This document shows positions 37,004-56,469 of a stretch of DNA of 64,000 bases, piece after piece. The DNA is from Rhodococcus xishaensis. GTDB taxonomy: Bacteria > Actinomycetota > Actinomycetes > Mycobacteriales > Mycobacteriaceae. The translations under genes were made by a program, and so were the position numbers. The notes under the pieces are model-generated. The model was not told the DNA's origin and searched no databases. It was given only the letters and a program-made list of their open reading frames with translations. The stretch covers positions 124,001 through 188,000 of the forward strand of contig NZ_RKLO01000006.1 of the NCBI RefSeq assembly GCF_004011825.1. Direction: 5' to 3'. Position 1 is the stretch's first letter. Each line of letters opens with the position of its first letter.

Positions 37004-37059
37004 CGCGATCCTCCTGGTCGGGTTGTGCCGGTACAGCCGCCACTCGCGACGACGATGAA

Positions 37060-37078
37060 TTAGGTTACCCAACCCTAT
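37060..37078. promoter_or_regulatory. IdeR/DtxR iron box, rhbA/rhbB
   Basis: TTAGGTTACCCAACCCTAT, close to the IdeR consensus TTAGGTTAGGCTAACCTAA. It lies between the divergent formyltransferase (start 37003) and hydrolase (start 37113), so iron-bound IdeR would silence both. Confidence 0.82.
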
Positions 37079-37112
37079 TCGATGGAGTGAACGCAGCACG
37101 AGGAAGGCCGAC

Positions 37113-37913
37113 ATGCCCATTGCGACCGTCAACGGGATTCCCCTGAACTACCAGGTCAAGGGCGAGGGAGACCTCGTCGTCCTGATCATGGGGACGGGCA
37201 GCCCGGGCCGTGTATGGGATCTGCACCAAGTCCCGTCGCTGGTCGCTGCCGGCTACCGGGTGTGCACGTTCGACAACCGCGGCATCGCCCCGTCGGGGGA
37301 GAGCGCCGACGGCATCGCCATCGAGGACATGGTGGCCGACACCGCCGGCCTGATCGAGCTGCTCGGCGGTTCCGCGCACGTCGTGGGCACGTCGATGGGC
37401 GCCCGGATCGCGCAGGAGCTGGCGCTCGCGCGACCCGAACTCGTTCACAGGGCCGTCTTCCTCGCCAGTCACGCGCGAATGGACCGTTTCCAGCAAACCC
37501 TCAACGAGGGTGAACGCGACCTGATGGACTCCGGCATCACGTTGCCGTCGAAGTACCGCGCGGCCGTGACCGCGGTCATGAATCTCTCGCCCGCGACGCT
37601 CGCCGACCAGCACGCGGCCCGCGACTGGCTCGACGTCTTCGAGTTCTCCGGTGGAGAAACCTCGCCTGGCTTGCGCGCACAGTTGGCGATGGACCGCGAC
37701 TTCGACCGGCGCGGCGCCTACCGGGGCATCACCCGCCCTTGCCTGGCTGTCGGCTTCGCGGACGACCGGATGATCCCCGCCTACCTCGCGAAGGAGGTTG
37801 CGGACGCCATTCCGGGCGCTCTCTACCAGGAGATCTCCGACGTCGGGCACTACGGCTACCTCGAGCGCCCCGAGGCTGTGAACAAGGTGATCCTGGACTT
37901 CCTCGCCGGCTGA
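37113..37913 (+). CDS. rhbB: Alpha/beta hydrolase of siderophore cluster
   Basis: 266 residues. Alpha/beta-hydrolase fold with nucleophile elbow GTSMG (Ser94), FDNRGIAPSG, an acid in GFADDRMIP and a His in SDVGHYGYLE. No signal peptide, so cytoplasmic. In siderophore clusters such enzymes act as editing thioesterases or release the iron by hydrolysing the siderophore; which applies here is open. It is divergent from the formyltransferase and precedes the NRPS by 133 nt, which include a second iron box. Symbol by cluster order. Confidence 0.78.
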   Translation: MPIATVNGIPLNYQVKGEGDLVVLIMGTGSPGRVWDLHQVPSLVAAGYRVCTFDNRGIAPSGESADGIAIEDMVADTAGLIELLGGSAHVVGTSMGARIAQELALARPELVHRAVFLASHARMDRFQQTLNEGERDLMDSGITLPSKYRAAVTAVMNLSPATLADQHAARDWLDVFEFSGGETSPGLRAQLAMDRDFDRRGAYRGITRPCLAVGFADDRMIPAYLAKEVADAIPGALYQEISDVGHYGYLERPEAVNKVILDFLAG

Positions 37914-38046: not shown

Positions 38047-41000
38047 ATGTCTGCGGACCACCACTCGGCTGCCCCCTTGCTCGACGGGGCGGTGGCCAAT
38101 CTGCCCGTCACCGCAGCACAGTCCGAGATCCTCGTCGCGCAGCAACTCGACCCGCTGAGCACCGTCTACAACCTCTCCCTCGTCGCCGAGGTCACGGGTG
38201 CGATCGACTTGGACGGGCTGGCCTTGGCGATCCGTCGTACCGTCGCCGACGCTGAGGCTCTGCACGTCCGGTTCCGGGTGGGCGATGATCACACCCTGCA
38301 CCAAGTGCCCGCACCGGCCGATGCGTGGCCGCTCGATGTGGTCGATGTGCGTGGCGCCGCCGACCCCGAGGCCGCAGCGCAGGCCTGGATGGACCGCGAC
38401 ATGGCGACGGTCGTCGACGTCACTGGCGACGACGCGCTGTTCGCGCACGCGCTGTTCCGCCTCGCCGACGACCACGTCGTCTGGTACCAGCGCTACCACC
38501 ACAGCATCGTCGACGGCCTCGGCATTTCGCTGATCGTCGCGGACGTGGTGGCGCGCTACAGCGATTCGAACCTCGGGGATCCGGAACTCGAGTCGAAGGC
38601 GGGGCAGTGGTCGCTGCGGGACCTCGTCGACGCCGACGTCGAGTACCGCAGTTCGGCCCGGTTCACCGCCGACCGCGACTACTGGCTCACCGAGATCCTC
38701 GAGGCGCCCGAGCCGCCGCAGTTATGTGCCGGAGGTACCGACGGGGCAGGGATTTCGGGGCCACCCGAGTCCACGACGGTTCTCATCGACGCCGCCATCG
38801 CCGATGCGCTGTACGCATTCGCGGCGGAGGCGGGAATCCGACGCACCCGCCTGCCGATGGCGCTGCTCGTTGCGTATCTGCACCGCATCACCGGCCTGCG
38901 GGACCTCACTCTGTCGATACCGATGGCGGCCCGTGTCGGGCGCGCGATGCGCCGTACACCGGGAATGGCGTCAACGATCCTGCCGGTGACGTTCCACGTG
39001 GACCCGGAGTCGACGGTCGGGGAGCTCGCCCGCGCGATCGACGCACGGTTGGTCACGGCGTTGCGGCACGGCCGTTACCGCGGTGGGGATCTCGACCGCG
39101 AGGTGCGGGCGATAGACCCGGACCGTCGCGTCTTCGGGCCGGGCATCAACTCGATGATGTTCGAGCATCCGGTCGAGCTCGACGGCAACCCGACGCGCAT
39201 CCGTAGCTCGGTCACCGGGCCGGTACGAGACCTTGACTTCTCCATCCAGGGCGGCGAGGACGGCGAGCCGATCCGCATCGACCTGCGTGCACCTGCCGGA
39301 AATCGCGACGAGCTGATGCGGCACCGGGATCGACTGACACACTTCATCTCTCAGTTCCTGAAAGATCCCGTGGTCACCGTGGGTGCGCTCGAACCGATGA
39401 CCGACGACGAGCGCCGGCGGGTGCTCGTGGGCTGGAACGACACCGACGAACCGCAGCCGTCGCACACTGTGCCGCAACTCTTCGCCGATGCCGTCCGCCG
39501 GGACGCCGACGCCGAGGCACTCGTGGCGGGCGACCGCCGGCTCACCTACCGCGAGCTCTCCGAGCGTGTCGCGCAGTTGGCGCACCACCTGCGCGAGCGG
39601 GGGCTGGCGCCGGAGGAGGTCGTGGCGGTGGCACTGCCGCGGTCGGCGGAGATGGTCGTCGGCCTGCTCGCGGTGTTGTGCGCGGGCGGCGCGTTCGTGC
39701 CGCTCGATCCGTCGTGGCCACAGGAGCGCCGGGACCGGGTCCGCGCCGACGCGCGCGCCCGCCTGGTGCTCACCGGACCGGGCGGCGTCGACGGGGGGGC
39801 GGATTCCGTCCTGGTCGATCTCGACGACTGGGCGCACGCAGACCTGCCCACCGACCTACCGGATCCCGAACTCGACGGCCGTCGCCTCGCGTACGTGATC
39901 TTCACATCCGGCTCGACGGGACGACCCAAGGGCGCGATGATCCGCCATGAGGCGATCGGCGCGCGCCTCGTGTGGCAGCGCGAACGGGTCCTCGGCTTCG
40001 GTCCCGACGATGCGTCGTTGTTCAAGGCGCCGCTGTCGTTCGACATTTCGATCAACGAGATCCTGCTGCCGCTCGTATCGGGCGGGCGCCTGGTCGTCAC
40101 CGAACCGGGCGGCGAGCGTGATCCGCAGTACCTGCTCGATCTCATTGCGCGCGAACGGGTCACGTTCGTGTACCTGGTGTCGTCGATGCTGGACGTTCTG
40201 CTCGACCTCGCCCGCGGCACCGACCTGCTGTCCGGGCTGCGGCACGTGTGGTGCGGCGGGGAGGTACTGACCCCGGACCTGTTCGACCGGTTCCGGCGCC
40301 AGCTGTCGACGACGCTCTACCACGGGTACGGGCCCGCCGAGGCAACCATCGGCGTCTCACACGTGATCTACCGCGACGATGCCGCTCGCATCGCGACGTC
40401 GATCGGCCGTCCCAACCCCAATACCCAGCTGTACGTGCTCGACTCCCAGTTGCGCCCGGTACCCGAGGGGATCGGCGGGGAGTTGTACGCGGGTGGCTAT
40501 CTCCTCGGACGCGGGTACGTCGGCGCGTCCGGTCTCACGGCCGCGCGTTTCGTCGCGAACCCGTTCGCGGACGACGGCTCGCGGCTCTATCGCACGGGCG
40601 ATCTGGCGCGGTGGGCCCCGGACGGCAGCCTGGACTTCCTAGGTCGTGCGGACAATCAGGTCAAGATCCGCGGAATGCGCCTCGAACTGGAGGACGTCGA
40701 AGCCGCACTGGCCTCCAACCCGGACGTGCGGCACGGTGCCGTCCTGGTCCGCAAGACACCGGTCGGGGCTAACTACCTGGCAGCGTATGTCGTTGCGAAC
40801 GGTGATCGGGAGGTCACCGCTGACGACCTACGGGCCTGGGCGGCGGACAGACTGCCCGAGTACATGGTGCCGTCGGCGTTCGTGATGCTCGACGCGTTTC
40901 CGCTGACCCCGAACGGGAAGTTGGACCGCCGGGCGCTGCCCGAACCCGATCTGACCGCGGCCGCCGAGCACGTCGCACCGCGCACCGACCTCGAGGCGAC

Positions 41001-44000
41001 GCTGTGCGCGTTGATCGCCGGCGTACTCGGGCTGGAGCGGGTGGGCGTGACGGACGACTTCTTCGCGCTCGGCGGTGACAGCATCGTCGCGATACAGCTC
41101 GTGAGCCAGGCTCGGCGTGAAGGTCTTTCGGTCAGCGCCCGTGACGTGTTCCAGCTACGGACCGCGGGCGCGCTCGCGGCCGCGTTGTACGGACGGGTAA
41201 CCGACCGCGCCGACGCCGACGACGTCGCGGCGGGCGCAGTCGCGGCGACGCCGGTCGTCGCCCGGGTGTGCGGTGCCGGCGCAAGCGTGCGCACTTTCCA
41301 CCAGTGGGTGCTGGTGCAGATACCGGCCGGGCTCGGCGAGGAGACCGCGACCGCGGCCCTGCAGGCGGTCGTCGACCGGCACGACGCACTGCGGGCACGC
41401 TGGGATCGGCAGACCGGAACGCTCGTGGTGCCCGACGAGAGTGTGCCGGCGACGGTGCACGTTTCCGAACTCCCCGACGGCTCCGATGCCGCCGACGCCG
41501 TCATCGCCGCAGAGCGTGCGGCCGCCGTCGACCTGCTCGACCCCGAGTCCGGAATCATGTTGCAGGCAGTGCTGTTCCACCGCGCGGATGCGCCCGGGCA
41601 ACTATTGCTCGTGGGTCATCACCTCGTCGTCGACGGGGTGTCCTGGCGGATCCTCGTCGAGGACTTCGCCCGCGCCGCCACCGCCCTCGCCGGTGGGACC
41701 CAGGCCCCGGCCGCCGTGGAGCTGCCCCCGGTCGGGACGTCGCTGCGCCGGTGGTCCCAGTTGCTGGACGAGCGGGTCCGCGGCGGGGCGTTCGAAGACG
41801 AACTCGACTACTGGCGGTCGGTGACTGCCACCGGTTCGCTCGAGATCGGCTCACGCGCCGTCGATCCCGCACTCGACACGTGGGCCGAAGCGGACGCCAC
41901 GACCGTGCAGACGATGCCGGAGGTCACCGCACCGCTGCTCGCCGAGGTGCCCGTCGCCTACCACACCGGTGTCGGTGACGTCCTCGTCGCTGCTTTGGCG
42001 CTGGCGCTGCGGCGCTGGCGCGGTAGCGACCGCGCCGACGTCCTGGTCGACCTCGAGGGACACGGCCGCGAGGAACACCTGGTGCGCCTTCCGGGCACCG
42101 CACTGGACGTCTCGCGGACGGTCGGATGGTTCACCACCGTCTACCCGGTCCGCCTGCAGATGGAGACCGACAACGTCCCGTCCGCGCTTCGGTCCGTCAA
42201 GGAACAGCTTCGTCGCATCCCGAACAACGGATTCGGTTACGGCGCGCTGCGATTCCTGAGCGGAGTGGGTGGCGATCTTGCAGCCGGCACCACGCCGCCG
42301 GTGCTGTTCAACTACCTCGGCCGGGTCACGTCCGGTGCGGGCGTCGACTGGCTTCCCGCCGCGACCGGCGGCGGCAGTGATCCCGCGATGCCGATCGGAC
42401 ACGCCCTCACCGTCGACGTGATCGCCACTGACGGCCCCGACGGACCGACGTTGCACACCACGCTCACTCGGGCCGGGGGTGTGCTGTCTCAGGCCGAGGT
42501 CGACGAGTTCGCCGCCCACTGGGCTGCTGCGCTGCGCGAGGTCGCCGCGTCCGCAACGGACGGTGGCCACACCCCGTCGGACTTCCCGTTGGTGCCGATG
42601 GCACAGGCGGACGTCGACCAGCTCGCCGAGTCGACACCGACGTTGTCCGACGTCCTGCCGACCACCCCACTGCAGGACGGCATCTACTTCCACAGCGTCT
42701 ACGAGCGTGGCATTCACGAGCGTGACGGGTCCGTGGACACGGAACCCGACCCGTACGTCGTCCAGCAGGTGGTGGAGTTGACCGGCGAGGTCGACGCGAT
42801 CGCAATGCACCGAGCGCTGCAAGGCGTCGTCGACCGGCACGACGTGCTCCGGGCGGGGCTGCGCCCGCTGTCCGACGGCCGTGTGGTGCAGGTGATCTCG
42901 GCGCGAGCCGACGTCCCCATCGCGGTGCTGGACCTTTCCGGCGACCCCGACTGGTTGGACGCGGTCGACCGCCTCCTCGCCGCTGATCGGGTGCGCGGCT
43001 TCGACTTCGAACATCCGCCTCTCGTCCGCTACACCCTGGTGCGGATCGATCAGGCGAGGTTCCTGCTGTTGCAGTCGATCCACCACGTCGTCGCGGACGG
43101 CTGGTCGGTGCCGGTGATGCTTCGCGAGCTCATGGCGCTCTACAGTCCGGCGGGTCCGCCGCCCGCCCTTCCCGCCCCGGCGCCGTACCGCGCCTACCTC
43201 GAGTGGCTGGCGTCCCGCGACCGCGACAGGTCGCTCGAGGCGTGGCGCGTCGCGCTTGCCGGAGCGGACGAGCCACCCGCCCTGCCTGGGACCCCGACCG
43301 CTGGTGCGACCGAGGTTCGGAGCGTGGAGGTTGCGCTGTCGGCGGTCGCGACGGAGGCGCTCGAGCGGCTCGGCCGTGAGCGCGGACTGACGACCAGCAC
43401 GCTCATCCACGGTGCGTGGGGCATGCTGCTGGCCCGCTTGACCGGACGTCGCGACGTGCTGTTCGGGTCGACGGTATCCGGCCGAGGCGGCGATCTGCCC
43501 GGCATCGAGGCGATGGTCGGCTTGTTCATCAACACGGTTCCCGCTCGGCTGCGACTGTCCACCGAGGAGACCCCGGCGGAGATCCTCTCGCGCTGGCAGT
43601 CCGAGCAGTCGGGACTGCTCGACCACCAGTACGTGGGCCTCGGTGAACTGCGTCGCCTGACCGGGCTGCAGGAACTGTTCGAGACGCTCGTCGTGGTCGA
43701 GAACTATCCGATCGGCAACACGTCGATCGCCGATCCGTCGGGCGCTGTGCAGATCGCCGGAATCCGGTTCGACGAGCACCCGCCGTACCCGTTGACACTC
43801 ATCGCGGTTCCCGGCGACCGGTTGCGGTTGGAGGTGAAGTACGACGCCGCACGCGTCGGCGACGCGACCGCGGCGCAGATGGCCGATGGTCTGCTGGCCG
43901 TGCTGTCTCTGCTCCCGGAGACCATCGACGGCCCGGTCGCCGCGGTGGAGTTGGCCGACCGGCCCGCGCCCACCCCGCGGACCGAGTTCCCGGACGCGAC

Positions 44001-47000
44001 CGTCCCCGCACTGCTCGAGGCACGGGCCGAGCGGAACCCCGACGCGATCGCGGTGGAGTTCGAGGGCCGCTCGCTGACGTACGCGCAGCTCCACGAGCGG
44101 GCAAACCGACTGGCGCACCTGCTGATCGAGCGTGGGGTCCGCCCTGAGTCGAGGGTGGCCGTTGCGTTGCCGCGCTCCCTCGAACTGGTGGTGGCACTGC
44201 TCGCAGTTGGCAAAGCCGGCGGCGCCTACGTCCCCCTCGACACCGGGTACCCCGCCGAACGACTGGGGTACATGCTCGAGGACTCTGCTCCGGTGTGCTT
44301 GCTGACGTCGGCGGATGCCGTCGCGGATCTGCCGCGTGGTGGAGCGGAGACGATCGCCGTCGACGAGGTCGACCTCGACGCGTACCCGACTGATCGACCC
44401 CGAGTCGCACTGTGCCCGCAGCATGCGGCCTACGTGATCTACACGTCCGGCTCCACCGGACGGCCCAAGGGTGTCGTGGTCCCGCACACGGGCGTGGTGA
44501 ACCGGCTCCTGTGGATGCAGTCCTTCCGACCGATCCTCGCCACCGATCGTGTGCTGCAGAAGACACCGTCGAGTTTCGACGTCTCGGTGCCGGAGTTCTT
44601 CGGCCCCCTCCTCGCCGGGGCGACGCTGGTTCTGGCACGGCCCGACGGACACCGTGATCCGCAGTACCTGGCGGAGTTGATCGCCGAGGCACGGATCACC
44701 CGCGCGCACTTCGTGCCGTCGATGCTGGAGTTGTTCCTCGCCGAGCCGAAGGCACGGGCGTGCGGTGGGATGCGCGTGGTCGCCTCCAGTGGTGAAGCTC
44801 TGCCGCTCGCGGTGGCTCGCCGGTTCTCCGAGGTGCTCCCCGGGGCCGTGCTCGACAACCTGTACGGACCCACCGAGGCCTCGGTGGAGGTCAGCTTCGC
44901 CGCGGCGGTGCAGGCCCTGTCAGCCGAAGCGACCGTGGTGCCGATCGGTGTACCGGTCTCGAATACCGCTCTGTACGTCCTGGATCCGTATCTACTACCT
45001 GTCGCCGACGGGGGAGTGGGCGAGCTGTACCTGGCCGGGCCGCAGCTGGCGCGTGGCTACCTCGGCCGCCCCGCTGCCACGGGCGACCGGTTCGTCGCCG
45101 ATCCGTTCGGCGCGCCCGGCGACCGCATGTACCGCACCGGCGACGTCGTGCGCCGAAACGGGGACGGCGCGATCGAGTTCCTGGGACGCGCCGACGACCA
45201 GGTCAAGCTGCGGGGCTTCCGCGTCGAGTTGGGGGAGATCGAGGCGCAGTTGGCGTCGCACCCCGACGTGACCCGGGCTGCCGCGGTGATCCGCGAGGAC
45301 GTCCCCGGCCACCAGCAACTCGTCGGGTACCTCGTTGCCGATCCCGCTCTCGACACCGAGACCGTTCGCCGCCACCTCGCACGGACGTTGCCCGGGTTCA
45401 TGGTGCCCGCCGCGTTCGTGGTCGTCGACGCTCTCCCGCTGAGCCCGAGCGGCAAGCTGGACCGGCGCGCCCTCCCGGCACCGAACGTCGCGACACCCAC
45501 GCCTACAACGGATTCGGCCTTGTCTCCTCTTGTGTCGGCGTCCCCTCGTGTGTCGACCCTCGTGGGACTGGTCGCCGAGGTGCTCGGTCTCGACGCCGTC
45601 GGGGAGGACGACGACTTCTTCGCCCTCGGGGGCGACAGCATTCTCGCGATCCGGCTCGTGAACCTGGCTCGCCGCGAGAACATCTCGATCACCCCCCGGC
45701 AGATCTTCGAACAACGCACCGCACGAGCCCTTGCCCGACTGATCGGCGACGACGCGCCTGTCGTGCAGCAAGACGCTGTGCGCGAACGGGTCGACCCCAC
45801 CGGCGACCTGCCTCCGTTGCCCGTCGTCCACCGGCTCTCGGAGTGGAGCGGTGGCACCAATCGGTTCAACCAGGCCGTGCTGCTGCACAGTCCCGTCGGT
45901 GCGACCACCCAGAACCTCACGGCCGCATTGCAGTCCGTTCTCGACCATCACGACGGACTCCGTCAGCAGTTGACCCGGCATGCGGCGGGAGTGTGGTCGC
46001 TGCACATCGCCGCCTCGGGCTCAGTCGTACCGTCGCTGCACCGGGTCGACGTCGCCGGCTACGACGACACGCAGTTGCGAGCGGTGATCGAGTCCGAGTC
46101 GAACGCTGCGGCGGACCGCCTCGACCCAGAGTCGGGCGCGATGCTCGAGGCCGTGTGGTTCGACGCGGGCGACGCCGAACCCGGGCGACTGCTGCTGGTT
46201 GCGCACCACCTCGTCGTCGACGGCGTCTCGTGGCGGGTACTGCTCGAGGACCTGCCGATGTCGTGGGTGGCGGCGCAGTCCGGCCAGCCCGCCGCGCTGG
46301 ACCCGGTGGGCACTTCCGTGAAGGAGTACGCGGAACTGGTCGCCGCTCAGGCGCAGCGGCCCGCCCGCCTGCGCGAGCTGGCGCACTGGACCGCGGTCAC
46401 CGCTCCGGGAGCCGAACTGGTGCCGTCCGCGCAGGGGGACGCCACGATCGCGACCGGATCCCGCCGGAGTGTGCGGCTGTCGGTCGCCGACACCGAAGCC
46501 GTGCTCATGGCCGTGCCCGCTCTCGCGCACGCCGACGTCACCGACGTTCTGGTGGCCGCGCTGCGCATCGCGGTAGACCGCTGGTTCGCCGGGCAGGGCC
46601 GCGAGGCCGACCTGCTGATCGACCTCGAACGGCACGGCCGTGAGGAACTGGTGCCTGGCATCGACCTGTCCCGCACCGTCGGCTGGTTCACCAACATCAC
46701 CCCGGTCCGCTTGCGTGGGACCTTGTCCGTGGGCGCGTCTGTGACTTCCGGGGGGACTTCCGGGGGCTCGCCGATCGAGGTCCTCAAGGACGTCAAGGAG
46801 AGCCTCCGGGCGGCACCGGATGGTGGCATCGGTTTCGGCATGCTCCGCTACGTCAACGGCCGAACCGCCGGGTTGCTGCGGTCCGGCGCTCAGGCGCAGG
46901 TGCTGTTCAACTACCTCGGCCGGACACCCGCCGGCCTTGTCGGTCCGTGGACGACCGCTCCCGAAACCGACTCGTTGGCAACCGATCCCGACATCGACAT

Positions 47001-50000
47001 GGGCGGACCGTACCGTCTGCTGGTGAACGCACTGTGCGAGGACACCCCCGATGGCCCGGTGCTCGGTGCGGTGTTCGGGTGGTCCGAGCCGGACCTGTCC
47101 GCATCGGATGCCGAGACGATCAGCGACGGCTGGGCGGTCGCGTTGCAGGAACTCGCGGCGATCGCGTCCGATCACTCCGGGCCGGGACTGCTCACCCCGT
47201 CCGACGTTCCACTCGCCGCGCTCACCCAGTCCGAGATCGACACGGTCACCGCGGCAGCCCCGGCTGGGGTGGAGACCATCTGGCCGCTGTCACCGCTGCA
47301 GGAGGGCCTGTACTTCCAGGCCGCAATCGCTGACGGCGCCGACATCTACACGGCCCAGTTCTCGCTGGACTTCGATCGGCACCTGGATCTGGAGCGGCTC
47401 GCCACCGCCATCCGCACGCTGCAGCGCCGCAACCCGACGCTGCGCGCCGGGTTCGTCAGCGCCGGGCTGACTGCCCCGGTGCAGTTCGTCAGCGCCGGAC
47501 TGGACGTTCCGATCATCGAGGTCGACCTGCGCGACCTGGATGATGAGGCACGCGAGGTCCGCGCCACGCAGCTGATGCTCGAGGACCGGCTCACCCCGTT
47601 CGATCTGACTGCACCGCCGCTGTGGCGCGCGATGGTCCTGCGACTGTCCGACGCGCGCGACCGCCTGGTGATCAACCGTCAGTTCCTGCTGTGGGACGGC
47701 TGGTCCAACGGCCTCGTCGTCAGCCAGCTCCTCGCGCTGTACGAGGAGGGTGGCGACGACACCGGATTCTTCACTCCCGAAAACGGATTCGACGACTACC
47801 TGTCCTGGCTCGCCAGGCGGGACGGAGACGTTGCGAACGGTGCATGGGCACGGGCGCTGTCCGGGATCGAGGAGCCGACATTGCTCGCTCGGCGCACCGG
47901 CGAGCCCGCGGGACTTCCCGACCGCCGCGACGCGGTGCTCTCCCGCGAACTCGGCGAGCGGCTACACACACAAGCCGCCCGTACCGGCGTGACGCTCAAC
48001 GCCATCCTCAGCGCGGCACTCGGGCTCGTGCTCGCCGGCGCGACCGGCCGCACCGACGTCGTGTTCGGTGCAACCGTCGCGGGCCGGCCTCCTGAGGTGC
48101 CGGGCATAGACTCCGTGGCCGGCATGTTCCTGAACACCGTGCCAGTGCGGATGTCGTTGCGACCGAACGAGTCCGTCGCGGATCTCATGCGTCGCACACA
48201 GTCGGGGCGGCTCGAACTGATGCCGTACGACTACCTCGGACTCGCGACGATCCAGCGAGCGAGCGAGCACCGCGAACTCTTCGACGTGCTGTACGTGTTG
48301 CAGAACTTCGTCGACGAGCGGCAGGTGTCGGCGCTGCATGCCGCCCACGACATCAGCGGCGGCGACAGCATCGACCACACGCACTACCCGCTGACAGTGG
48401 TCGTCACCCCGGGCACCGAGACCAAGGTGAAGTTCGAGTTCCATCCCGACAAGGTGTCGGCGTCCGACACCGAACGCCTGCTGGCGGGATTCGTGCGGTT
48501 GCTCGAGCAGTTCGCCGATGACGTGGACGTGCCCGTCGGGCGGACGGGCACTCTCGCACCGCCTGACCGCGCCCGCCTGGAAGCCCGGCTCACCGAGACC
48601 ACACACCCGGTGCCGGAGAAGACGATCGCGGACCTGTTCACCGCGACCGCACAGCGGATCCCCGACGCGACCGCGCTGGTGTTCGGCGACGACCTCGTCA
48701 CCTACGCGGACCTCGACGCGAGGATCAACCGCCTGGCGCGGATGCTGCTCGCACACGGTGCCGGCCCGGAACGGATCGTCGCTCTGGCACTGCCGCGGTC
48801 GGTGGAGACCGTCGTCGCGCTTTTCGCAGTGCTGCGGACCGGCGCCGCGTATCTCCCGCTCGAACTCGATCACCCCTCCGAGCGCCTGGTCGGGATGCTC
48901 GAGGACGCACGACCGGTGACGATGGTGACCACCACGGCGGTCGCCGAAACCCTCAGCGCGGCAACGGTCGATGTGATCCTGCTCGACGACTCGGCGGTTC
49001 ACGACACGCTCCGAGCCACCGACGACTCGGTCCTCGCCGACGCCGAACTCGGCGGCTTCGCACCCGGAACCCCGGGCCGCATGGACCATCCCGCGTACGT
49101 GATCTACACGTCGGGCTCCACCGGCAAGCCCAAGGGTGTGGTGACGCCGTACCGCGGCTTGACCAACATGCAGTTCAACCACCGCGAGGAGATCTTCGAA
49201 CCCATCGTTCGTTCCGGGGGCGGGCGCACGCTGCGCATCGCTCACACCGTGTCGTTCGCGTTCGACATGTCCTGGGAAGAGTTGCTGTGGCTCGTCGAGG
49301 GGCACGAGGTGCACATCTGCGACGAGACGCTGCGTCGTGACGCGCGGGCGCTCGTCGAGTACGGCGACCGGCACGCGATCGACGTCGTCAACGTGACGCC
49401 GACCTACGCACGGCACCTGATCGAGGACGGGTTGCTCGAGGACGGGCCGGGACAGCACCGGCCCCCGCTGGTCCTGCTCGGCGGTGAAGCCGTCTCCGAC
49501 CAGGTGTGGGACGCGTTGCGCGAGACCGACGGAACCTGCGGCTACAACCTGTACGGCCCCACCGAGTACACCATCAACACGCTCGGCGGTGGCACCAGCG
49601 ACAGTGTGACGCCCACGGTGGGCCGGCCGATCTGGAACACCGTCGCGCACATCCTCGACGGCTGGCTCCGCCCCGTCCCGGACGGGGTCGCGGGCGAACT
49701 GTACATCTCCGGTGTCGGACTCGCGCGCGGCTACCTCGGCCGGTTCGGCCTGACCGCTGAGCGGTTCGTCGCCGACTCGATCGTCGGCGGTGGCGCTCGC
49801 ATGTACCGCACCGGCGATCTCGTCAGACGTGGACCCGACGGCAACATCGACTTCCTCGGGCGCACCGACGACCAGGTGAAGATCCGCGGGCATCGCGTGG
49901 AACTGGGCGAGGTCGAAGCGGTGCTGGCCGCGCACGACTCGGTGCGGCAGGCCGCGGTGATCGCCGACGCCGGGCCCGGCGGCATCAAGCGCCTGGTCGC

Positions 50001-53000
50001 CTACGTGGTGTCGGCACACGCGACCCCGTCCGCGGAGGTGGCCGCTCACGCGCGCAAGGCGCTGCCGGACTACATGGTTCCGGTCGCTTTCATCGCCGTC
50101 GAGACGTTGCCGATGACCGTCAACGGCAAACTCGACGTGCGCGCGCTGCCGTCTGCGGACACCGTCCTCGGACGCGCCGGGGGTGAGTCCCGCGCGCCGC
50201 GGAACCCCGTCGAAGACACGCTGTGCCGGCTGTTCGGCGAGGTTCTCGAGCTTCCCGAGGACACGGGACCCGGGATCGACGACAACTTCTTCGACCTCGG
50301 CGGTCACTCATTGCTCGCGACCCGGCTCATGAGCCGGGCACGTGCCGAATTGTCCGCCGAGTTGACGATGCGGGACCTGTTCGAGGCGCCCACTGTGGCC
50401 GAACTCGCGGAGCGCATCGCGGGTCGATCCGAGTCGATCCGTCCGGTCCTGGTCACGGGACAGCGACCCGACCATCTGCCGCTCTCGCCTGCGCAACAGC
50501 GGCTGTGGCTGATCCAGCAGATCGAGAAGGGCAGCCAGGAGGGCACAGAGAAGGGCACCGAGCAGGACACAGCGGCGTCCTCCGCCTACAACTTCCCGAT
50601 CGTTCTGCGCCTACGCGGTCTCCTCGACGTCGAGGCGTTCACACAGGCCCTCGGTGACGTCGTCGCCCGACACGAGGTGCTCCGCACTGTGTTCGACGAG
50701 CACGAAGGCGATCCGGTCCAGGTGATCCTGGACGACGCCCACCTCGAGGTGAACGTTCTCGACGCCCAACCCGACGACGCAGAGCCCGACGAGGCCAGCC
50801 GCCTAGTGGCGGCCGCCGTCGCCCGACCGTTCGACCTAGCCTCCGAGATCCCCGTGCGTGCCACGGTGATCCGTGTCGGTGATGACGAGTACGTTCTTGC
50901 CCTCGTTCTGCATCACATTGCAACCGACGAATGGTCGGACCGGCCGTTCCTGCGGGACCTGATGGTCGCCTACGCGGCCCGCATCCACGGCGCGGCACCC
51001 GAATGGACGCCACTACCGGTGCAGTACGCGGACTACACGTTGTGGCAGCGGGCGTTGCTCGGCGATCCGTCCGATGCCGACTCGCTGATCAGCCGCCAAC
51101 TCGACTACTGGACAGAGGTTCTCGACGGCGCGCCCGAGGAACTGGCGCTGCCCACCGACCGCACGCGGGCTGCCCGGCCCAGCTTCGCCGGCGGTGCAAT
51201 CGAACTGGACCTTGCCGCAGAGACAACCGTCGCCCTGCGAGCCCTCGCCCGTGAACGCGGCGCGAGCATGTTCATGGTGCTGCACGCCGCTTCGGCGGCT
51301 CTGCTGCACCGGCTGGGTGCCGGCGACGACCTGCCGTTGGGGGCGCCGGTCGCCGGGCGCGCCGAGCAGGGCCTCGACGATCTCGTCGGCTTCTTCGTCA
51401 ACACCGTCGTGCTCCGCACCGATGTCTCGGGCGACCCGACGTTCGCGCAGCTGCTGGGCCGGGTCAAGGAGCTCGACCTGGCGGCGTTCTCGCACGCGGA
51501 CGTGCCGTTCGAGTCGGTCGTCGAACGCGTCAATCCGGCGCGCACGCTGGCCCGGAATCCGTTGTTCCAGGTGATGGTCGGCTACCACAGCCGAGTCGCC
51601 GAGGCGGTGTCGTCGCCGGAGCTGACGCTCGCGTCGGTGTCGTCGTCGGACCTGGCGCTCGCGCCGGTGTCGATCGAGGAGCGCAGCGCCAAATTCGATC
51701 TCGCGTTCAACTGGACCGAGTTCCTCGACGAGGACCGGGTGCAATTGCGGCTCGAGTACAGCGCCGACCTGTTCGACCACGACACCGCCACGCGCATAGC
51801 GCGCCGCCAAGCGGCCGTACTCGGTGCTGTCGCGTCGAATCCCACGGCCCGTGTATCCGCCGTCGACGTGTTCCTCGACGGTGAACGCGGCGCCGTCCTG
51901 CACCAGTTCAACGACACGCTCCGCCCGGTCGAGGAGCTGACGTTGCCGGACGCCTTCGACCGCTGGGTGCGGTGGACCCCCGATGCTGTGGCCGTGTCGG
52001 ACCGGGACGGCGCGGCCACCTTCGCCGAGCTCGACGAGCGGTCCCGGCGCATTGCCGGAGTGCTCGCCTCACGTGGGATTCGCACTGAAAGCGTTGTGGG
52101 TCTAGCGGTCCCGAGGTCGATCGACATGGTCGCCGCGGTCCTCGGGGTGCTGCGGCTGGGCGCGGCGTACCTGCCGCTCGATCTCACCCATCCGGCGGAC
52201 CGCATAACGTACATGCTCGAGGACTCGGGTGCTCAGATCCTGCTCACCACAGCGCCCGAATCGGCGCGAATCGTGACCGACGTGACCAGGGTGCTGCTCG
52301 ACGATCCGGACGTGCGGGGCGAACTCGCAGGTCCACTGCCCGACGACCTGCCAACCCCGCCTGGGGGCCTCGACCATGCGGCCTACGTCATCTACACGTC
52401 TGGATCGACGGGACGGCCCAAGGGCGCTGTGCTGCCGCACGAGGGCATCATGAGCTTGGTCGCCACGGCCGAGGACCGGATGAGGCTCACGACCGGTTCG
52501 GTGGTCATGCAGTTCGCGTCTGTCGGCTTCGACGTCGCTGTGTTCGAGTTGTCGATGGCGCTGTGCACAGGGTCGAGGTTGGTGATCATCCCGGAGGAGG
52601 CGCGGGTTGCCGGACCGGAGCTCACCGATTTCATGCACGAGCGTGGCGTCACGCATGCGATCCTGCCGCCGTCGCTGATGGCGGCGCTGCCTCCGGGATG
52701 CCTTGTACCGGAGGGTTGCACCGTGCTTGTGGGCACCGAGACGGTGCCGCCGGACCTCGTCGGACGCTGGGCCGAGCGACTGAATCTGTTGGCCGCCTAC
52801 GGGCTCACCGAGGCAACCGTCAACAACACTCTGTGGCAGGCGCAGCCGGGCTGGACCGAGGCGGTGCCGATCGGCATCCCCGACCCCAACGAACAGGCAT
52901 ACGTGCTCGACGACCTGCTGCGTCCGGTACCGCCGGGCATCGCCGGCGAGCTGTACATCGCCGGGCGTGGCCTGGCTCGTGGCTACCTCGGCAGGCCGGC

Positions 53001-54993
53001 GCTCACGGCGGGACGGTTCGTCGCGAACCCGTTCGGTCCCGGCCGCATGTACCGCACCGGGGACCGAGCCCGGTGGCGGGTGGACGGGAACATCGACTTC
53101 CTCGGCCGCGTCGACGACCAGGTGAAGATCCGCGGATTCAGGATCGAACTCGGCGAGATCATTGCCGCGCTCTCGAGCCATCCGGCGGTCAGCCAGGCCG
53201 CGGTGGTCGCGGATCGGGACGTCGGCATCACCCGCCTCGTCGGGTATGTCTCGCCCGAGTTCGACGACGGCGCGGACTCCGTTGTCGCCGTGGACGCCTC
53301 CGACGTCAAGGCACATGCTGCGGGACTGCTGCCGGACTACATGGTGCCCACCATGGTCGTGGTATTGCCGGGTGCACTGCCCCTCACCCCGAACGGCAAG
53401 CTCGACCGCCGGGCGCTGCCCGCGCCGGACTGGGCGGCCCTGGCCGGAGATGGCACTCCGCGCGACGAGGTCGAACGGCAACTCTGCGAGATCTTCTCGG
53501 AGATCCTGCATCTGCCGGCGGTCGGCGTCCACGACGGCTTCTTCGACCTCGGAGGGCACTCCATGGCGTCGATGAGACTCGTCGGACGGGTCCGCGCCCT
53601 GTTCGGGTGCGAGATCACCATCCGGGACATCTTCGACACCCCGACGGTGGCAGAACTGGCCGAGGTCGTTCGCCGCCGCAACACACCCGCTCGGCCGGCG
53701 CTCGTCGCGGCCGGCGCCGCGACACCCGTTCCGTTGGCGCCCGCACAGCGACTGCACTGGTTGCGGCATCGTGCGGCGGGTTCGTCCGCGCGCGCCGACC
53801 ACGCGCTCGCGCTGCGACTGCACGAGACGATCGACGCGGACGTGTTGGCACGGGCGCTCGATGATGTCGTCGACCGCCATGTCACGCTGCGAACCGTGTT
53901 CGCTCCAGATGGTTCGGAGGTGTTCGCCTACGACGGTCCGCGGCCAGGAATCGACGTCATCGAGGTGGGTGATGACGACCTGTACCGTCGGGCGTACGAG
54001 TTGGCGCAGTTGCGGATCGACCTCACCGGAGAAGCGCCGCTGCGAGTGCATGTGGTCAGTGACGACGCCGGACGTCAGGTGCTCCTGCTGACGATGCACC
54101 ATCTCGCGGTCGACGAGTGGTCGGTAGTGCCGCTACTCGGAGACCTGTTGTCCGCGTATGTATTCCGTTCTTCTGGTGTCGAGCCGCAGTGGGAGCCACT
54201 CACGGTGGAGTACCCCGACTACGTGCGGTGGCAGCACGTGGTGCTCGGCGATCCGGCCGATCCGGATAGTCGGCACGCGCGCCAGCTCGACTACTGGCGG
54301 AAGCGGTTGTCGGGCATGCCGGCCCGGATCCCTCTCCCCGCCCCGGCGGGGATGCGAGAGGCGCGCCGCGAGATGGTGCCAATCGAGATCGATGCCGGTC
54401 TGCACGAGGGGATCGACCGGCTAGCCGGCCGCACCGGGACAAGCATGTTCATGGTGCTGCAAGCGGCGTTGGCGACGCTATTGACGATGCACGGTGCGGG
54501 CAGCGACATTCCGATCGGTGCGCTCGTCGCGGGGCGGACGGAGGACGCGCTCGCGCCGATGGTCGGGTGCTTCTTCAACCTCGTTGTGATGCGGACCGAC
54601 ACGAGCGGAACGCCCGACTTCGAGGAGTTGCTCGCCCGGATCCGCGTCTCCAATCTCGACGCGCTCGATCATCCGGATGTCGGTTTCGCCGACGTCGCCG
54701 CCGAAATCGATGGCGTGGGATCCGGAAGCCGCTTCCCCCAGGTGATGCTGATACACCACGAGCAGGCGCGCTTCGACGCGCTCGACGGCGTACTGGACGG
54801 GTTCTTGCCGGTGCCGGTCGGGTTGCCGTCCGCGGAGTTGGCGCTCAGCTTCTACGAACCGGTCGGCCCCGGTCCGGTCCATGCCTACTTCGAGTTCTCG
54901 ACCGCAACCGTCGATGGTGACGTTGTCGCGGCATGGGCGCGCGAGCTGCCGGCGCTGCTGACCTCGGTCGTGGATGCCAGCGAAGGAAGGTGA
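38047..54993 (+). CDS. rhbC: Tetramodular NRPS for a hydroxamate siderophore
   Basis: 5648 residues. Order: C1-A1-T1-E1-C2-A2-T2-E2-C3-A3-T3-C4-A4-T4-C5. Landmarks: C1 HHSIVDG 151; A1 P-loop 616; T1 Ser1012; E1 HHLVVDG 1191; C2 HHVVADG 1679; A2 2129; T2 Ser2531; E2 HHLVVDG 2720; C3 degenerate at 3212; A3 3684; T3 Ser4088; C4 HHIATDE 4289; A4 4780; T4 Ser5172; C5 HHLAVDE 5351. Specificity codes read by hand: A1 DINYWGGIGK (formyl-hydroxyornithine type), A2 DVPHASLVEK (serine-like), A3 DMENLGLINK (hydroxyornithine), A4 DVFILGAVNK (unclear, acyl-hydroxyornithine likely). No thioesterase; terminal C5 may release by cyclisation, as in erythrochelin/foroxymithine-type lines. The same four-residue product is published for RhbC of R. 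equi. Confidence 0.93.
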   Translation: MSADHHSAAPLLDGAVANLPVTAAQSEILVAQQLDPLSTVYNLSLVAEVTGAIDLDGLALAIRRTVADAEALHVRFRVGDDHTLHQVPAPADAWPLDVVDVRGAADPEAAAQAWMDRDMATVVDVTGDDALFAHALFRLADDHVVWYQRYHHSIVDGLGISLIVADVVARYSDSNLGDPELESKAGQWSLRDLVDADVEYRSSARFTADRDYWLTEILEAPEPPQLCAGGTDGAGISGPPESTTVLIDAAIADALYAFAAEAGIRRTRLPMALLVAYLHRITGLRDLTLSIPMAARVGRAMRRTPGMASTILPVTFHVDPESTVGELARAIDARLVTALRHGRYRGGDLDREVRAIDPDRRVFGPGINSMMFEHPVELDGNPTRIRSSVTGPVRDLDFSIQGGEDGEPIRIDLRAPAGNRDELMRHRDRLTHFISQFLKDPVVTVGALEPMTDDERRRVLVGWNDTDEPQPSHTVPQLFADAVRRDADAEALVAGDRRLTYRELSERVAQLAHHLRERGLAPEEVVAVALPRSAEMVVGLLAVLCAGGAFVPLDPSWPQERRDRVRADARARLVLTGPGGVDGGADSVLVDLDDWAHADLPTDLPDPELDGRRLAYVIFTSGSTGRPKGAMIRHEAIGARLVWQRERVLGFGPDDASLFKAPLSFDISINEILLPLVSGGRLVVTEPGGERDPQYLLDLIARERVTFVYLVSSMLDVLLDLARGTDLLSGLRHVWCGGEVLTPDLFDRFRRQLSTTLYHGYGPAEATIGVSHVIYRDDAARIATSIGRPNPNTQLYVLDSQLRPVPEGIGGELYAGGYLLGRGYVGASGLTAARFVANPFADDGSRLYRTGDLARWAPDGSLDFLGRADNQVKIRGMRLELEDVEAALASNPDVRHGAVLVRKTPVGANYLAAYVVANGDREVTADDLRAWAADRLPEYMVPSAFVMLDAFPLTPNGKLDRRALPEPDLTAAAEHVAPRTDLEATLCALIAGVLGLERVGVTDDFFALGGDSIVAIQLVSQARREGLSVSARDVFQLRTAGALAAALYGRVTDRADADDVAAGAVAATPVVARVCGAGASVRTFHQWVLVQIPAGLGEETATAALQAVVDRHDALRARWDRQTGTLVVPDESVPATVHVSELPDGSDAADAVIAAERAAAVDLLDPESGIMLQAVLFHRADAPGQLLLVGHHLVVDGVSWRILVEDFARAATALAGGTQAPAAVELPPVGTSLRRWSQLLDERVRGGAFEDELDYWRSVTATGSLEIGSRAVDPALDTWAEADATTVQTMPEVTAPLLAEVPVAYHTGVGDVLVAALALALRRWRGSDRADVLVDLEGHGREEHLVRLPGTALDVSRTVGWFTTVYPVRLQMETDNVPSALRSVKEQLRRIPNNGFGYGALRFLSGVGGDLAAGTTPPVLFNYLGRVTSGAGVDWLPAATGGGSDPAMPIGHALTVDVIATDGPDGPTLHTTLTRAGGVLSQAEVDEFAAHWAAALREVAASATDGGHTPSDFPLVPMAQADVDQLAESTPTLSDVLPTTPLQDGIYFHSVYERGIHERDGSVDTEPDPYVVQQVVELTGEVDAIAMHRALQGVVDRHDVLRAGLRPLSDGRVVQVISARADVPIAVLDLSGDPDWLDAVDRLLAADRVRGFDFEHPPLVRYTLVRIDQARFLLLQSIHHVVADGWSVPVMLRELMALYSPAGPPPALPAPAPYRAYLEWLASRDRDRSLEAWRVALAGADEPPALPGTPTAGATEVRSVEVALSAVATEALERLGRERGLTTSTLIHGAWGMLLARLTGRRDVLFGSTVSGRGGDLPGIEAMVGLFINTVPARLRLSTEETPAEILSRWQSEQSGLLDHQYVGLGELRRLTGLQELFETLVVVENYPIGNTSIADPSGAVQIAGIRFDEHPPYPLTLIAVPGDRLRLEVKYDAARVGDATAAQMADGLLAVLSLLPETIDGPVAAVELADRPAPTPRTEFPDATVPALLEARAERNPDAIAVEFEGRSLTYAQLHERANRLAHLLIERGVRPESRVAVALPRSLELVVALLAVGKAGGAYVPLDTGYPAERLGYMLEDSAPVCLLTSADAVADLPRGGAETIAVDEVDLDAYPTDRPRVALCPQHAAYVIYTSGSTGRPKGVVVPHTGVVNRLLWMQSFRPILATDRVLQKTPSSFDVSVPEFFGPLLAGATLVLARPDGHRDPQYLAELIAEARITRAHFVPSMLELFLAEPKARACGGMRVVASSGEALPLAVARRFSEVLPGAVLDNLYGPTEASVEVSFAAAVQALSAEATVVPIGVPVSNTALYVLDPYLLPVADGGVGELYLAGPQLARGYLGRPAATGDRFVADPFGAPGDRMYRTGDVVRRNGDGAIEFLGRADDQVKLRGFRVELGEIEAQLASHPDVTRAAAVIREDVPGHQQLVGYLVADPALDTETVRRHLARTLPGFMVPAAFVVVDALPLSPSGKLDRRALPAPNVATPTPTTDSALSPLVSASPRVSTLVGLVAEVLGLDAVGEDDDFFALGGDSILAIRLVNLARRENISITPRQIFEQRTARALARLIGDDAPVVQQDAVRERVDPTGDLPPLPVVHRLSEWSGGTNRFNQAVLLHSPVGATTQNLTAALQSVLDHHDGLRQQLTRHAAGVWSLHIAASGSVVPSLHRVDVAGYDDTQLRAVIESESNAAADRLDPESGAMLEAVWFDAGDAEPGRLLLVAHHLVVDGVSWRVLLEDLPMSWVAAQSGQPAALDPVGTSVKEYAELVAAQAQRPARLRELAHWTAVTAPGAELVPSAQGDATIATGSRRSVRLSVADTEAVLMAVPALAHADVTDVLVAALRIAVDRWFAGQGREADLLIDLERHGREELVPGIDLSRTVGWFTNITPVRLRGTLSVGASVTSGGTSGGSPIEVLKDVKESLRAAPDGGIGFGMLRYVNGRTAGLLRSGAQAQVLFNYLGRTPAGLVGPWTTAPETDSLATDPDIDMGGPYRLLVNALCEDTPDGPVLGAVFGWSEPDLSASDAETISDGWAVALQELAAIASDHSGPGLLTPSDVPLAALTQSEIDTVTAAAPAGVETIWPLSPLQEGLYFQAAIADGADIYTAQFSLDFDRHLDLERLATAIRTLQRRNPTLRAGFVSAGLTAPVQFVSAGLDVPIIEVDLRDLDDEAREVRATQLMLEDRLTPFDLTAPPLWRAMVLRLSDARDRLVINRQFLLWDGWSNGLVVSQLLALYEEGGDDTGFFTPENGFDDYLSWLARRDGDVANGAWARALSGIEEPTLLARRTGEPAGLPDRRDAVLSRELGERLHTQAARTGVTLNAILSAALGLVLAGATGRTDVVFGATVAGRPPEVPGIDSVAGMFLNTVPVRMSLRPNESVADLMRRTQSGRLELMPYDYLGLATIQRASEHRELFDVLYVLQNFVDERQVSALHAAHDISGGDSIDHTHYPLTVVVTPGTETKVKFEFHPDKVSASDTERLLAGFVRLLEQFADDVDVPVGRTGTLAPPDRARLEARLTETTHPVPEKTIADLFTATAQRIPDATALVFGDDLVTYADLDARINRLARMLLAHGAGPERIVALALPRSVETVVALFAVLRTGAAYLPLELDHPSERLVGMLEDARPVTMVTTTAVAETLSAATVDVILLDDSAVHDTLRATDDSVLADAELGGFAPGTPGRMDHPAYVIYTSGSTGKPKGVVTPYRGLTNMQFNHREEIFEPIVRSGGGRTLRIAHTVSFAFDMSWEELLWLVEGHEVHICDETLRRDARALVEYGDRHAIDVVNVTPTYARHLIEDGLLEDGPGQHRPPLVLLGGEAVSDQVWDALRETDGTCGYNLYGPTEYTINTLGGGTSDSVTPTVGRPIWNTVAHILDGWLRPVPDGVAGELYISGVGLARGYLGRFGLTAERFVADSIVGGGARMYRTGDLVRRGPDGNIDFLGRTDDQVKIRGHRVELGEVEAVLAAHDSVRQAAVIADAGPGGIKRLVAYVVSAHATPSAEVAAHARKALPDYMVPVAFIAVETLPMTVNGKLDVRALPSADTVLGRAGGESRAPRNPVEDTLCRLFGEVLELPEDTGPGIDDNFFDLGGHSLLATRLMSRARAELSAELTMRDLFEAPTVAELAERIAGRSESIRPVLVTGQRPDHLPLSPAQQRLWLIQQIEKGSQEGTEKGTEQDTAASSAYNFPIVLRLRGLLDVEAFTQALGDVVARHEVLRTVFDEHEGDPVQVILDDAHLEVNVLDAQPDDAEPDEASRLVAAAVARPFDLASEIPVRATVIRVGDDEYVLALVLHHIATDEWSDRPFLRDLMVAYAARIHGAAPEWTPLPVQYADYTLWQRALLGDPSDADSLISRQLDYWTEVLDGAPEELALPTDRTRAARPSFAGGAIELDLAAETTVALRALARERGASMFMVLHAASAALLHRLGAGDDLPLGAPVAGRAEQGLDDLVGFFVNTVVLRTDVSGDPTFAQLLGRVKELDLAAFSHADVPFESVVERVNPARTLARNPLFQVMVGYHSRVAEAVSSPELTLASVSSSDLALAPVSIEERSAKFDLAFNWTEFLDEDRVQLRLEYSADLFDHDTATRIARRQAAVLGAVASNPTARVSAVDVFLDGERGAVLHQFNDTLRPVEELTLPDAFDRWVRWTPDAVAVSDRDGAATFAELDERSRRIAGVLASRGIRTESVVGLAVPRSIDMVAAVLGVLRLGAAYLPLDLTHPADRITYMLEDSGAQILLTTAPESARIVTDVTRVLLDDPDVRGELAGPLPDDLPTPPGGLDHAAYVIYTSGSTGRPKGAVLPHEGIMSLVATAEDRMRLTTGSVVMQFASVGFDVAVFELSMALCTGSRLVIIPEEARVAGPELTDFMHERGVTHAILPPSLMAALPPGCLVPEGCTVLVGTETVPPDLVGRWAERLNLLAAYGLTEATVNNTLWQAQPGWTEAVPIGIPDPNEQAYVLDDLLRPVPPGIAGELYIAGRGLARGYLGRPALTAGRFVANPFGPGRMYRTGDRARWRVDGNIDFLGRVDDQVKIRGFRIELGEIIAALSSHPAVSQAAVVADRDVGITRLVGYVSPEFDDGADSVVAVDASDVKAHAAGLLPDYMVPTMVVVLPGALPLTPNGKLDRRALPAPDWAALAGDGTPRDEVERQLCEIFSEILHLPAVGVHDGFFDLGGHSMASMRLVGRVRALFGCEITIRDIFDTPTVAELAEVVRRRNTPARPALVAAGAATPVPLAPAQRLHWLRHRAAGSSARADHALALRLHETIDADVLARALDDVVDRHVTLRTVFAPDGSEVFAYDGPRPGIDVIEVGDDDLYRRAYELAQLRIDLTGEAPLRVHVVSDDAGRQVLLLTMHHLAVDEWSVVPLLGDLLSAYVFRSSGVEPQWEPLTVEYPDYVRWQHVVLGDPADPDSRHARQLDYWRKRLSGMPARIPLPAPAGMREARREMVPIEIDAGLHEGIDRLAGRTGTSMFMVLQAALATLLTMHGAGSDIPIGALVAGRTEDALAPMVGCFFNLVVMRTDTSGTPDFEELLARIRVSNLDALDHPDVGFADVAAEIDGVGSGSRFPQVMLIHHEQARFDALDGVLDGFLPVPVGLPSAELALSFYEPVGPGPVHAYFEFSTATVDGDVVAAWARELPALLTSVVDASEGR

Positions 54994-55134: not shown

Positions 55135-56469
55135 ATGACTGAGGATCGACCATTCGACACCGAAACATTCGACGTAGTCGGGATCGGGTTCGGCCCGTCG
55201 AACCTCGCGCTGGCGATCGCGATCGAGGAGCACAACGCGGGCTGCGGCCCCGACGAGAAGATCACCGCATGCTTCATCGAGAAGCAGCAGCAGTTCAGCT
55301 GGCACGCTGGCATGCTGCTCGACGGCGCAACCATGCAGATCGCATTCCCCAAGGATCTGGTCACCTTCCGCAACCCGCGCAGTAGCTACAGCTTCTTCTC
55401 GTATCTGCATGACCGCGGTCGTCTGGTCGACTTCGTGAACCAGCAGACGTTCTTCCCCACCCGAGTCGAGTTCCAGGACTACCTACAGTGGGCGGCCGGG
55501 CGCGTCACCGCAGACGTCCGGTACGGCACCACCGTCACAGCCGTTGATGGCGTCGATGGCGGGGCAGTCGTAGACCGCCTCGCAGTGTCGCTGTCCGACG
55601 GCACCACCGTTCACGCCCGAAACGTCGTGGTGGCTGCGGGGTTGCGTGAACGGCTACCGGAGTGGGCGACGCCCTCGGCGCGGTGCTTCCACAACCACCA
55701 GTTCCTCCACCGGATCGCCGCTATGCCCGAGCCTGTGCATCAGCGGTTCGTCGTTCTCGGTGCCGGTCAGAGTGCCGCCGAGGTCGTTCAGTACCTGCAC
55801 AGCAACTACCCGCAGGCCGAGGTCCACAGCGTTTTCTCCAAGTTCGGGTACAGCCCGGCCGACGACAGTCCGTACGCGAACCGGATCTTCGATCCTGCCG
55901 CAGTGGACGAACTGTACGCGGCACCCGCGTCCGCGCGTGAGCACCTACTCGAAGTGCACCGAAGCACCAACTACTCGGCGGTCGACATCGAGTTGATCAA
56001 CGAGCTCTACGCCACCGAGTACCAGGAGCGGGTCCAGGGACAGCGGCGTCTGTTCATGCGGCGTGCATCCGAGGTCAGCGCAGTCCAGGAGACGGGCGAC
56101 GGCATCGAGGTGTCGGTGACCAGCGCACTCGACGGGCTCACCGACGCACTGATGTGCGACGCTCTGGTGCTGGCTACCGGCTTCGAGCCGACCCCGCTGG
56201 AGTCGTTGTTCGGTGCGTCGATGCCCGGGATCGGTACGCACCAAGATGTGGGACGTGACTACAGGCTCGAGGTCGGTCCGGCCGGTCACGCCGGCATCTA
56301 TCTACAGGGCGGAACGGAGAAAACACACGGTCTGACATCGTCGTTGTTGTCGAATGCCGCGGTGCGTGCGGGGGACATACTCAATTCGATTCTCGCTCAT
56401 CGAGATATTAGCGCTGGCCTTGCTAGGCTGAGCGAAGACAACCCATACGCGACAAGCGAGGTTAGATGA
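55135..56469 (+). CDS. rhbD: L-ornithine N5-monooxygenase
   Basis: 444 residues, SidA/PvdA/IucD-type flavin monooxygenase. FAD site [14 protein letters not shown] (14-27), NADPH site [14 protein letters not shown], and the ATGFEPTP motif near the C-terminus are all present. It hydroxylates the side-chain amine of free ornithine with NADPH and O2, making N5-hydroxyornithine for the formyltransferase and for the NRPS. Overlaps the MbtH gene by 4 nt. A lysine substrate cannot be excluded by motifs, but the NRPS codes favour ornithine. Confidence 0.92.

Follow-up and report, generated by a model that had tools for sequence, protein, structure and literature searches.

The loss of the second, catalytic histidine from the HHxxxDG motif of C3, the third condensation (C) domain of a nonribosomal peptide synthetase (NRPS) from Rhodococcus xishaensis, is real and strongly patterned, and it marks a C-domain variant associated with hydroxyornithine modules that mostly lie inside the chain. 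Where canonical LCL and DCL condensation domains have HHxxxDG with its second histidine, C3 reads QFLLWDG. As judged from sequence comparison, it nevertheless most likely works as a C domain, on an unusual nucleophile. No description of the pattern was found in the open full-text literature searched, and the role of the second histidine in C domains is itself presented as still debated (PMC11546977, PMC8097023).

The window, the whole stretch of 64,000 nucleotides that was analysed, contains this synthetase and its neighbouring genes (Table 1). The domain order of the 5,648-aa protein was assigned with profile models made from its own C, adenylation (A) and epimerisation (E) domains, and its four carrier (T) domains were identified with Pfam. 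The codes of A1 to A4 were read at what we take to be the adenylation code positions, and that of A2, by its likeness to other codes, is presumably Ser-like. With E2 upstream of C3 and this code in A2, a D-seryl group is a plausible, putative donor. The codes DINYWGGIGK, DFWN[IV]GMVHK and DMENLGLINK are found in coelichelin-like three-module lines (L156, L157 and L162), and a review lists formyl-hydroxyornithine, Thr and hydroxyornithine as what the three modules of CchH take (PMC9854754); A1 would thus take formyl-hydroxyornithine and A3 hydroxyornithine.

Table 1. Features of the NRPS and adjoining genes in the window (nucleotide positions of the window)
Feature	Position	Strand	Remarks
NRPS ORF, 5,648 aa	38047..54993	+	C1-A1-T-E1-C2-A2-T-E2-C3-A3-T-C4-A4-T-C5; rhequichelin/erythrochelin-like line
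C1, N-terminal C domain	38098..39396	+	motif HHSIVDG
A1, code DINYWGGIGK	39466..40950	+	formyl-hydroxyornithine type; same code in first module of coelichelin-like lines
E1, epimerisation domain	41257..42552	+	motif HHLVVDG
C2	42652..43953	+	motif HHVVADG
A2, code DVPHASLVEK	43999..45489	+	Ser-like; substrate presumed from similar codes
E2, epimerisation domain preceding C3	45805..47160	+	motif HHLVVDG
C3, condensation domain without catalytic His	47275..48552	+	profile models, AlphaFold2 model, PDB matches
QFLLWDG where HHxxxDG is expected, residues 3212-3218	47680..47700	+	codons CAG TTC CTG CTG TGG GAC GGC
A3, code DMENLGLINK	48622..50166	+	N5-hydroxyornithine; same code in third module of coelichelin-like lines
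C4	50473..51870	+	motif HHIATDE
A4, code DVFILGAVNK	51940..53436	+	acyl-hydroxyornithine type, presumed from position
C5, terminal C domain	53722..54990	+	HHLAVDE at 54097; presumed diketopiperazine release
L-ornithine/L-lysine N-monooxygenase family	55135..56469	+	PF13434, E 3.8e-101; presumably hydroxyornithine supply
Formyltransferase	36065..37132	-	PF00551/PF02911; presumably for N5-hydroxyornithine

The synthetase is built like those for rhequichelin, erythrochelin and foroxymithine, with four modules for acyl-hydroxyornithine, a second residue X, hydroxyornithine and acyl-hydroxyornithine, a terminal C domain, and an adjoining ornithine N5-monooxygenase gene; an acyl/formyltransferase gene is also in the cluster (roles assigned by family). 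This module pattern was found in 63 stretches. The siderophore of the rhequichelin cluster type is described as not characterised in detail (PMC7824959). Four consecutive MCE-family genes (TIGR00996) lie upstream of the siderophore cluster (27698-32647, + strand), and a glycosyltransferase family 20 gene (PF00982) lies near it (34054-35595, - strand).

The motif stands exactly where the sequence-only reading had placed it, and no proper HH pair occurs anywhere else in C3. QFLLWDG aligns onto the motif of solved C domains in three alignments (one with McyB, 8hlk, and two with PvdL C3). A sequencing error is unlikely, given that separate assemblies of Prescottella agglutinans (L067) and R. hoagii (L068) also read QFLLWDG. 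All six of the other C and E domains (C1, E1, C2, E2, C4 and C5) keep HH, as that reading had claimed, but in C4 and C5 the motif closes with DE instead of DG. The DxxxxD motif of heterocyclization domains is absent from C3, where QFLLWDG takes its place. The proposed subtype is recognised by a position directly before an A domain with the code DMEN[LM]GL[IV]NK, the lack of the second histidine and the retention of Asp-Gly, all of which are seen in C3. What the sequence-only reading did not see is the distribution of the loss, which throughout Actinobacteriota characterises hydroxyornithine modules and chiefly those inside the chain, or the likely reason for it, a hydroxylamine nucleophile.

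In annotated loci, the C domain lacks the second histidine (and is here called His-less) in 177 of the 216 countable modules with the N5-hydroxyornithine-type code DMEN[LM]GL[IV]NK, while the histidine is kept in 450/450 countable modules with other adenylation codes, a contrast that goes beyond chance. Its position in the His-less domains is filled by Leu (97), Phe (63), Val (9), Ala (6), Met (1) or Gln (1). Left out of the counts were 13 of 229 DME-type A domains: five paired a His-less motif with a gapped code, one had its HH motif 220 aa off, and for seven the stretch showed no motif. A further 182 of the 632 A domains with other codes were left out because of gaps, truncated ends, too great a distance or the absence of a C domain in front. 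Among the latter, 36 modules had a C match but were too distant or had a gapped code; 29 of them have the second histidine, three are gapped, and four read DMIAGDA, a heterocyclization-type motif. The loci overlap partly, with some genomes represented twice; the numbers at 95% identity are 154 His-less and 32 HH hydroxyornithine modules, with the second histidine in 419/419 of the others; at 80% identity the corresponding numbers are 95, 19 and 289/289.

These figures combine two surveys. The first took C3 as the query against 251 genomes from the family, with 36 regions read, and drew A3-like domains from named genome contigs (the best 80 of at least 588 confirmed loci). All 123 DMENLGLIN modules lacked the second histidine and all 296 other modules had it. 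Other codes taken as hydroxyornithine-derived were uniformly accompanied by the histidine in these first-survey loci (DVFILGAVNK 73/73, DINYWGGIGK 18/18, DAQEGGLVDK 17/17). The rule suggested by the 123/123 count, that the hydroxyornithine code always brings a His-less C domain, proved wrong. The first picture was biased because its loci had been picked by their closeness to C3 or A3, and wider sampling brought in hydroxyornithine modules that keep HH. Of 261 matching plasmid records the wider survey opened twelve, and it searched the peptide FDMSWEE in sets of 251, 249 and 296 genomes, of which 81, 66 and 38 had a match; 80 of the matching regions were fetched. The genome searches were centred on Actinobacteriota, the only phylum surveyed in depth, and the DMEN code was absent from the four proteobacterial records among the twelve plasmid matches opened. 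In four loci (L220, L221, L222 and L226) hydroxyornithine modules have the odd motif WFGCFDGG; these loci also hold the heterocyclization-type DMIAGDA and represent a different siderophore type.

The two kinds of hydroxyornithine module differ in their place in the chain. The module is the last in the stretch read for 38 of 39 HH cases and for 22 of 177 His-less ones, where last means the last domain found in a stretch, some stretches being cut and L161 running on further. Another C domain follows in 154 of the 177 His-less modules. The adenylation code alone does not, therefore, dictate the loss. Both kinds can occur in one protein, most clearly in L161, L163, L175 and L185, with the His-less C domain earlier and the HH domain on a later hydroxyornithine module. 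A Streptomyces-family protein with three tandem hydroxyornithine modules (L183, + strand ORF from position 1) reads HALLWDGW, HHIAGDEW and HHIAGDEW, the middle one having HH though it is not last. Immediately upstream of the His-less domain an E/C domain is present in 105 cases and absent in 56, and donor codes vary widely. The loss thus tracks the acceptor and its place in the chain rather than the donor. Five loci (L033, L034, L038, L039 and L040) have, right before the His-less domain, a C/E-family domain with a degenerate motif (PAGLVDET, AAGLIDDV, PAALVDET) that is possibly a dead epimerase.

In trees of C domains built with the motif masked, most His-less domains fall in one main clade. 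A separate clade carries QVALL, EVALV or ELILL and has sisters that keep the second histidine, and HALLW domains form a possible third group. A single origin of all His-less domains is rejected (p-AU 0.0027), and a joint origin of the main group and HALLW is not rejected (p 0.457), so that two losses are claimed, not three. The loss thus arose at least twice, both times in hydroxyornithine modules; independent losses are few (two to three), since one clade holds most of the domains. Among representatives, Trp directly precedes the motif Asp in 61/71 of the main group, 5/5 of HALLW and 0/4 of the QVALL group. The search for a replacement acid or base covered columns conserved to 80% or more in the main group but to 30% or less in the other HH domains, and it turned up no ionisable residue specific to all three His-less groups. 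D3205 and R3388 are hallmarks of the main group; HH hydroxyornithine domains have R3466 and D3468 just as often.

C3 is predicted to have the CAT-like, two-lobe fold of C domains. The AlphaFold2 model (58 aligned domains) has a mean pLDDT of 94.2 and a pTM of 0.91, the domain matches PF00668, and the top eight PDB matches of the model are C domains of SrfA-C, TycB and PvdL (TMq 0.82-0.89). Mean identity to the window in 26 lines of equal architecture is 65.2% for C3, second best of the seven C/E domains (C1 54.6, C2 60.8, C4 66.2, C5 54.5, E1 53.6 and E2 61.3%). The dN/dS ratio of C3 in four close pairs is 0.14-0.19, by which measure the domain is under purifying selection. This conservation and these ratios disfavour decay of C3 or skipping of its module. 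In the motif region, 80/80 His-less representatives retain Asp, Gly and Ser.

LCL and DCL condensation domains such as PvdL C3, TycB and SrfA-C resemble C3 in fold, in their place between a donor T/E and an acceptor A-T, and in the Asp-Gly-Trp-Ser that follows the motif; in the trees C3 sits among C domains with HHxxxDGW motifs. Unlike them, it has lost both motif histidines, has a hydrophobic residue at the catalytic position and shares the Trp before Asp that is usual in its main group. The ORF18 C domain, which has HQxxxDM and the aminoglycoside acceptor streptothrisamine, is reported to work without the second histidine (PMC11546977), as is proposed for C3. In ORF18, however, Gln stands for the histidine and its mutation lowers activity (PMC11546977), whereas the His-less group has Leu, Phe, Val, Ala or Met in 176/177 and Gln once.

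Hydroxylamines are mostly unprotonated at neutral pH and are strong nucleophiles. Hydroxyornithine within the chain is acylated on the hydroxylamine nitrogen in exochelin, erythrochelin, foroxymithine and coelichelin. In the diketopiperazine products the ring takes up both α-amines, which leaves only the side chain for the bond with residue 2. Module order and these siderophore structures point to C3 as probably an active C domain of an unusual subtype, which would acylate the side-chain N-OH group of hydroxyornithine and form a backbone hydroxamate with no base needed. The acceptor would be N5-hydroxyornithine on the third carrier protein. Its side-chain hydroxylamine nitrogen would take the seryl carbonyl, so that the backbone gains a hydroxamate as one of its three iron ligands, and its α-amine would be left free for diketopiperazine release by C5. 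With a hydrophobic residue in place of the second histidine and the motif Asp and Gly retained, C3 may only hold and orient the two thioesters. A general base would be dispensable because the nucleophile is already unprotonated and reactive; the survey suggests that the reactivity of hydroxyornithine suffices for coupling in the absence of the catalytic histidine. Without a base the α-ammonium group of hydroxyornithine would compete less, so that the loss may enforce regioselectivity. Such an attack is made feasible by a published calculation, in which the C-N bond forms before deprotonation and water may substitute for the histidine (PMC8097023).

The number of hydroxamates per product supports the side-chain reading, though it is not proof. 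Acyl-hydroxyornithine codes and His-less modules together give three hydroxamates in the 63 stretches with the module pattern of the window and in three exochelin-like lines (L141, L144 and L146). The latter have codes in the order formyl-hydroxyornithine, β-Ala-like, hydroxyornithine, Thr-like, hydroxyornithine, and both of their hydroxyornithine C domains lack the second histidine. Four Amycolatopsis lines reach three if the terminal DAQEGGLVDK residue is cyclic hydroxyornithine. Many other stretches are cut or have fewer than three; coelichelin-like lines have two and would need one residue to be used twice. An HH hydroxyornithine module is found in the line of L231, with the codes DADDVGLVDK, which we take to be Arg/Orn-like, then a Gly-like code and the hydroxyornithine code; in this order the line looks like that of heterobactin. 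The residue order of heterobactin A is given as (N-OH)-Orn-Gly-Orn-DHB (PMC10972888), and m/z 438.197 is reported for heterobactin B (PMC7824959). For DHB-Orn-Gly-hydroxyornithine that has given up one more water, as expected where the terminal hydroxyornithine is cyclic, the calculated mass is 438.198. This match, in one case and in mass alone, suggests that the terminal hydroxyornithine is cyclic, so that its α-nitrogen carries the peptide.

The histidine is also lost where the acceptor is presumably not a hydroxylamine. Tyr occupies the second-His position in 70 of 84 terminal C domains that follow the last DVF..GAVNK module, a count that includes two HH rows resembling epimerisation domains. 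The nucleophile of such terminal domains should be an α-amine, in an intramolecular reaction, and loss is therefore not exclusive to hydroxylamine acceptors. BasB is reported to couple N-hydroxyhistamine (PMC12005286), and if it keeps HH, the loss would not be forced by a hydroxylamine acceptor alone. The terminal domain of the window keeps HH, unlike most lines of the rhequichelin, erythrochelin and foroxymithine type; with that of a close relative (L064) it is among the 14 that do. The terminal domains with Tyr make up another group poor in this histidine, which may have to do with intramolecular diketopiperazine release.

Two further readings of C3 have to be weighed against acylation of the side chain. 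It is unlikely that C3 forms an ordinary peptide bond to the α-amine without the histidine, with water or another residue as the base, the motif being a peculiarity of the lineage that travels with the C-A pair. The concentration of most His-less domains in one clade and the loss in terminal C domains would agree with such a peculiarity; other C domains are reported to tolerate mutation of this histidine, and HQxxxDM occurs as a natural variant (PMC11546977). Against it stand two or more independent losses, all of them in hydroxyornithine modules and none among the 450 other modules counted, the HH domains that accompany the identical adenylation code further along the same proteins, and the lack of a conserved ionisable residue specific to all three His-less groups. 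It is scarcely credible that attack begins at the hydroxylamine oxygen and the resulting O-acyl ester then rearranges to nitrogen, C3 acting only as a template. That route would need no base either, and N-hydroxy compounds can be O-acylated, but nothing specific speaks for it.

C3 could also be catalytically dead, a spacer or gate, with the step left to C2, C4, C5 or a separate enzyme, or with module 3 skipped. Interface and X domains provide the precedent, being relatives of C domains with altered HHxxxDG motifs that do not condense. They partner a hydroxylase or P450, the X domain sitting in the terminal module and recruiting a P450. C3 is instead internal, the sole C domain before a full A3-T module, and no β-hydroxylase partner, the interface-domain trait, was found among ten neighbouring ORFs scanned with Pfam. 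A dead C3 is very unlikely, given a conservation like that of the best C/E domains, the dN/dS values, and the Asp and Gly retained in every His-less representative. The sequence-only reading had left three options, and the one in which the family condenses without the histidine is favoured by the 177/216 count, the purifying selection and the predicted well-folded C3. Its other two, that another domain does the step or that the module is skipped, fit badly with the coelichelin-like lines L156 and L157, in which the His-less domain is the last C domain and yet hydroxyornithine is among the residues listed for coelichelin (PMC9854754).

For the wider family the chances seem about even that base-free C domains for hydroxamate bonds evolved repeatedly, that deletion of the histidine confers chemoselectivity for the N-hydroxy side chain, and that the motif predicts the linkage, to the side chain where the histidine is missing and to the α-nitrogen where HH is kept, usually in a terminal and cyclised residue. 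A natural set of His-less domains with a special acceptor, together with HH modules that share the code and sometimes the protein, offers a ready test of the role of the histidine. If the rule is true, C domains would be on offer for engineering N-hydroxy peptide bonds, and the connectivity of hydroxamate siderophores would be readable from sequence, beyond what the adenylation code alone gives.
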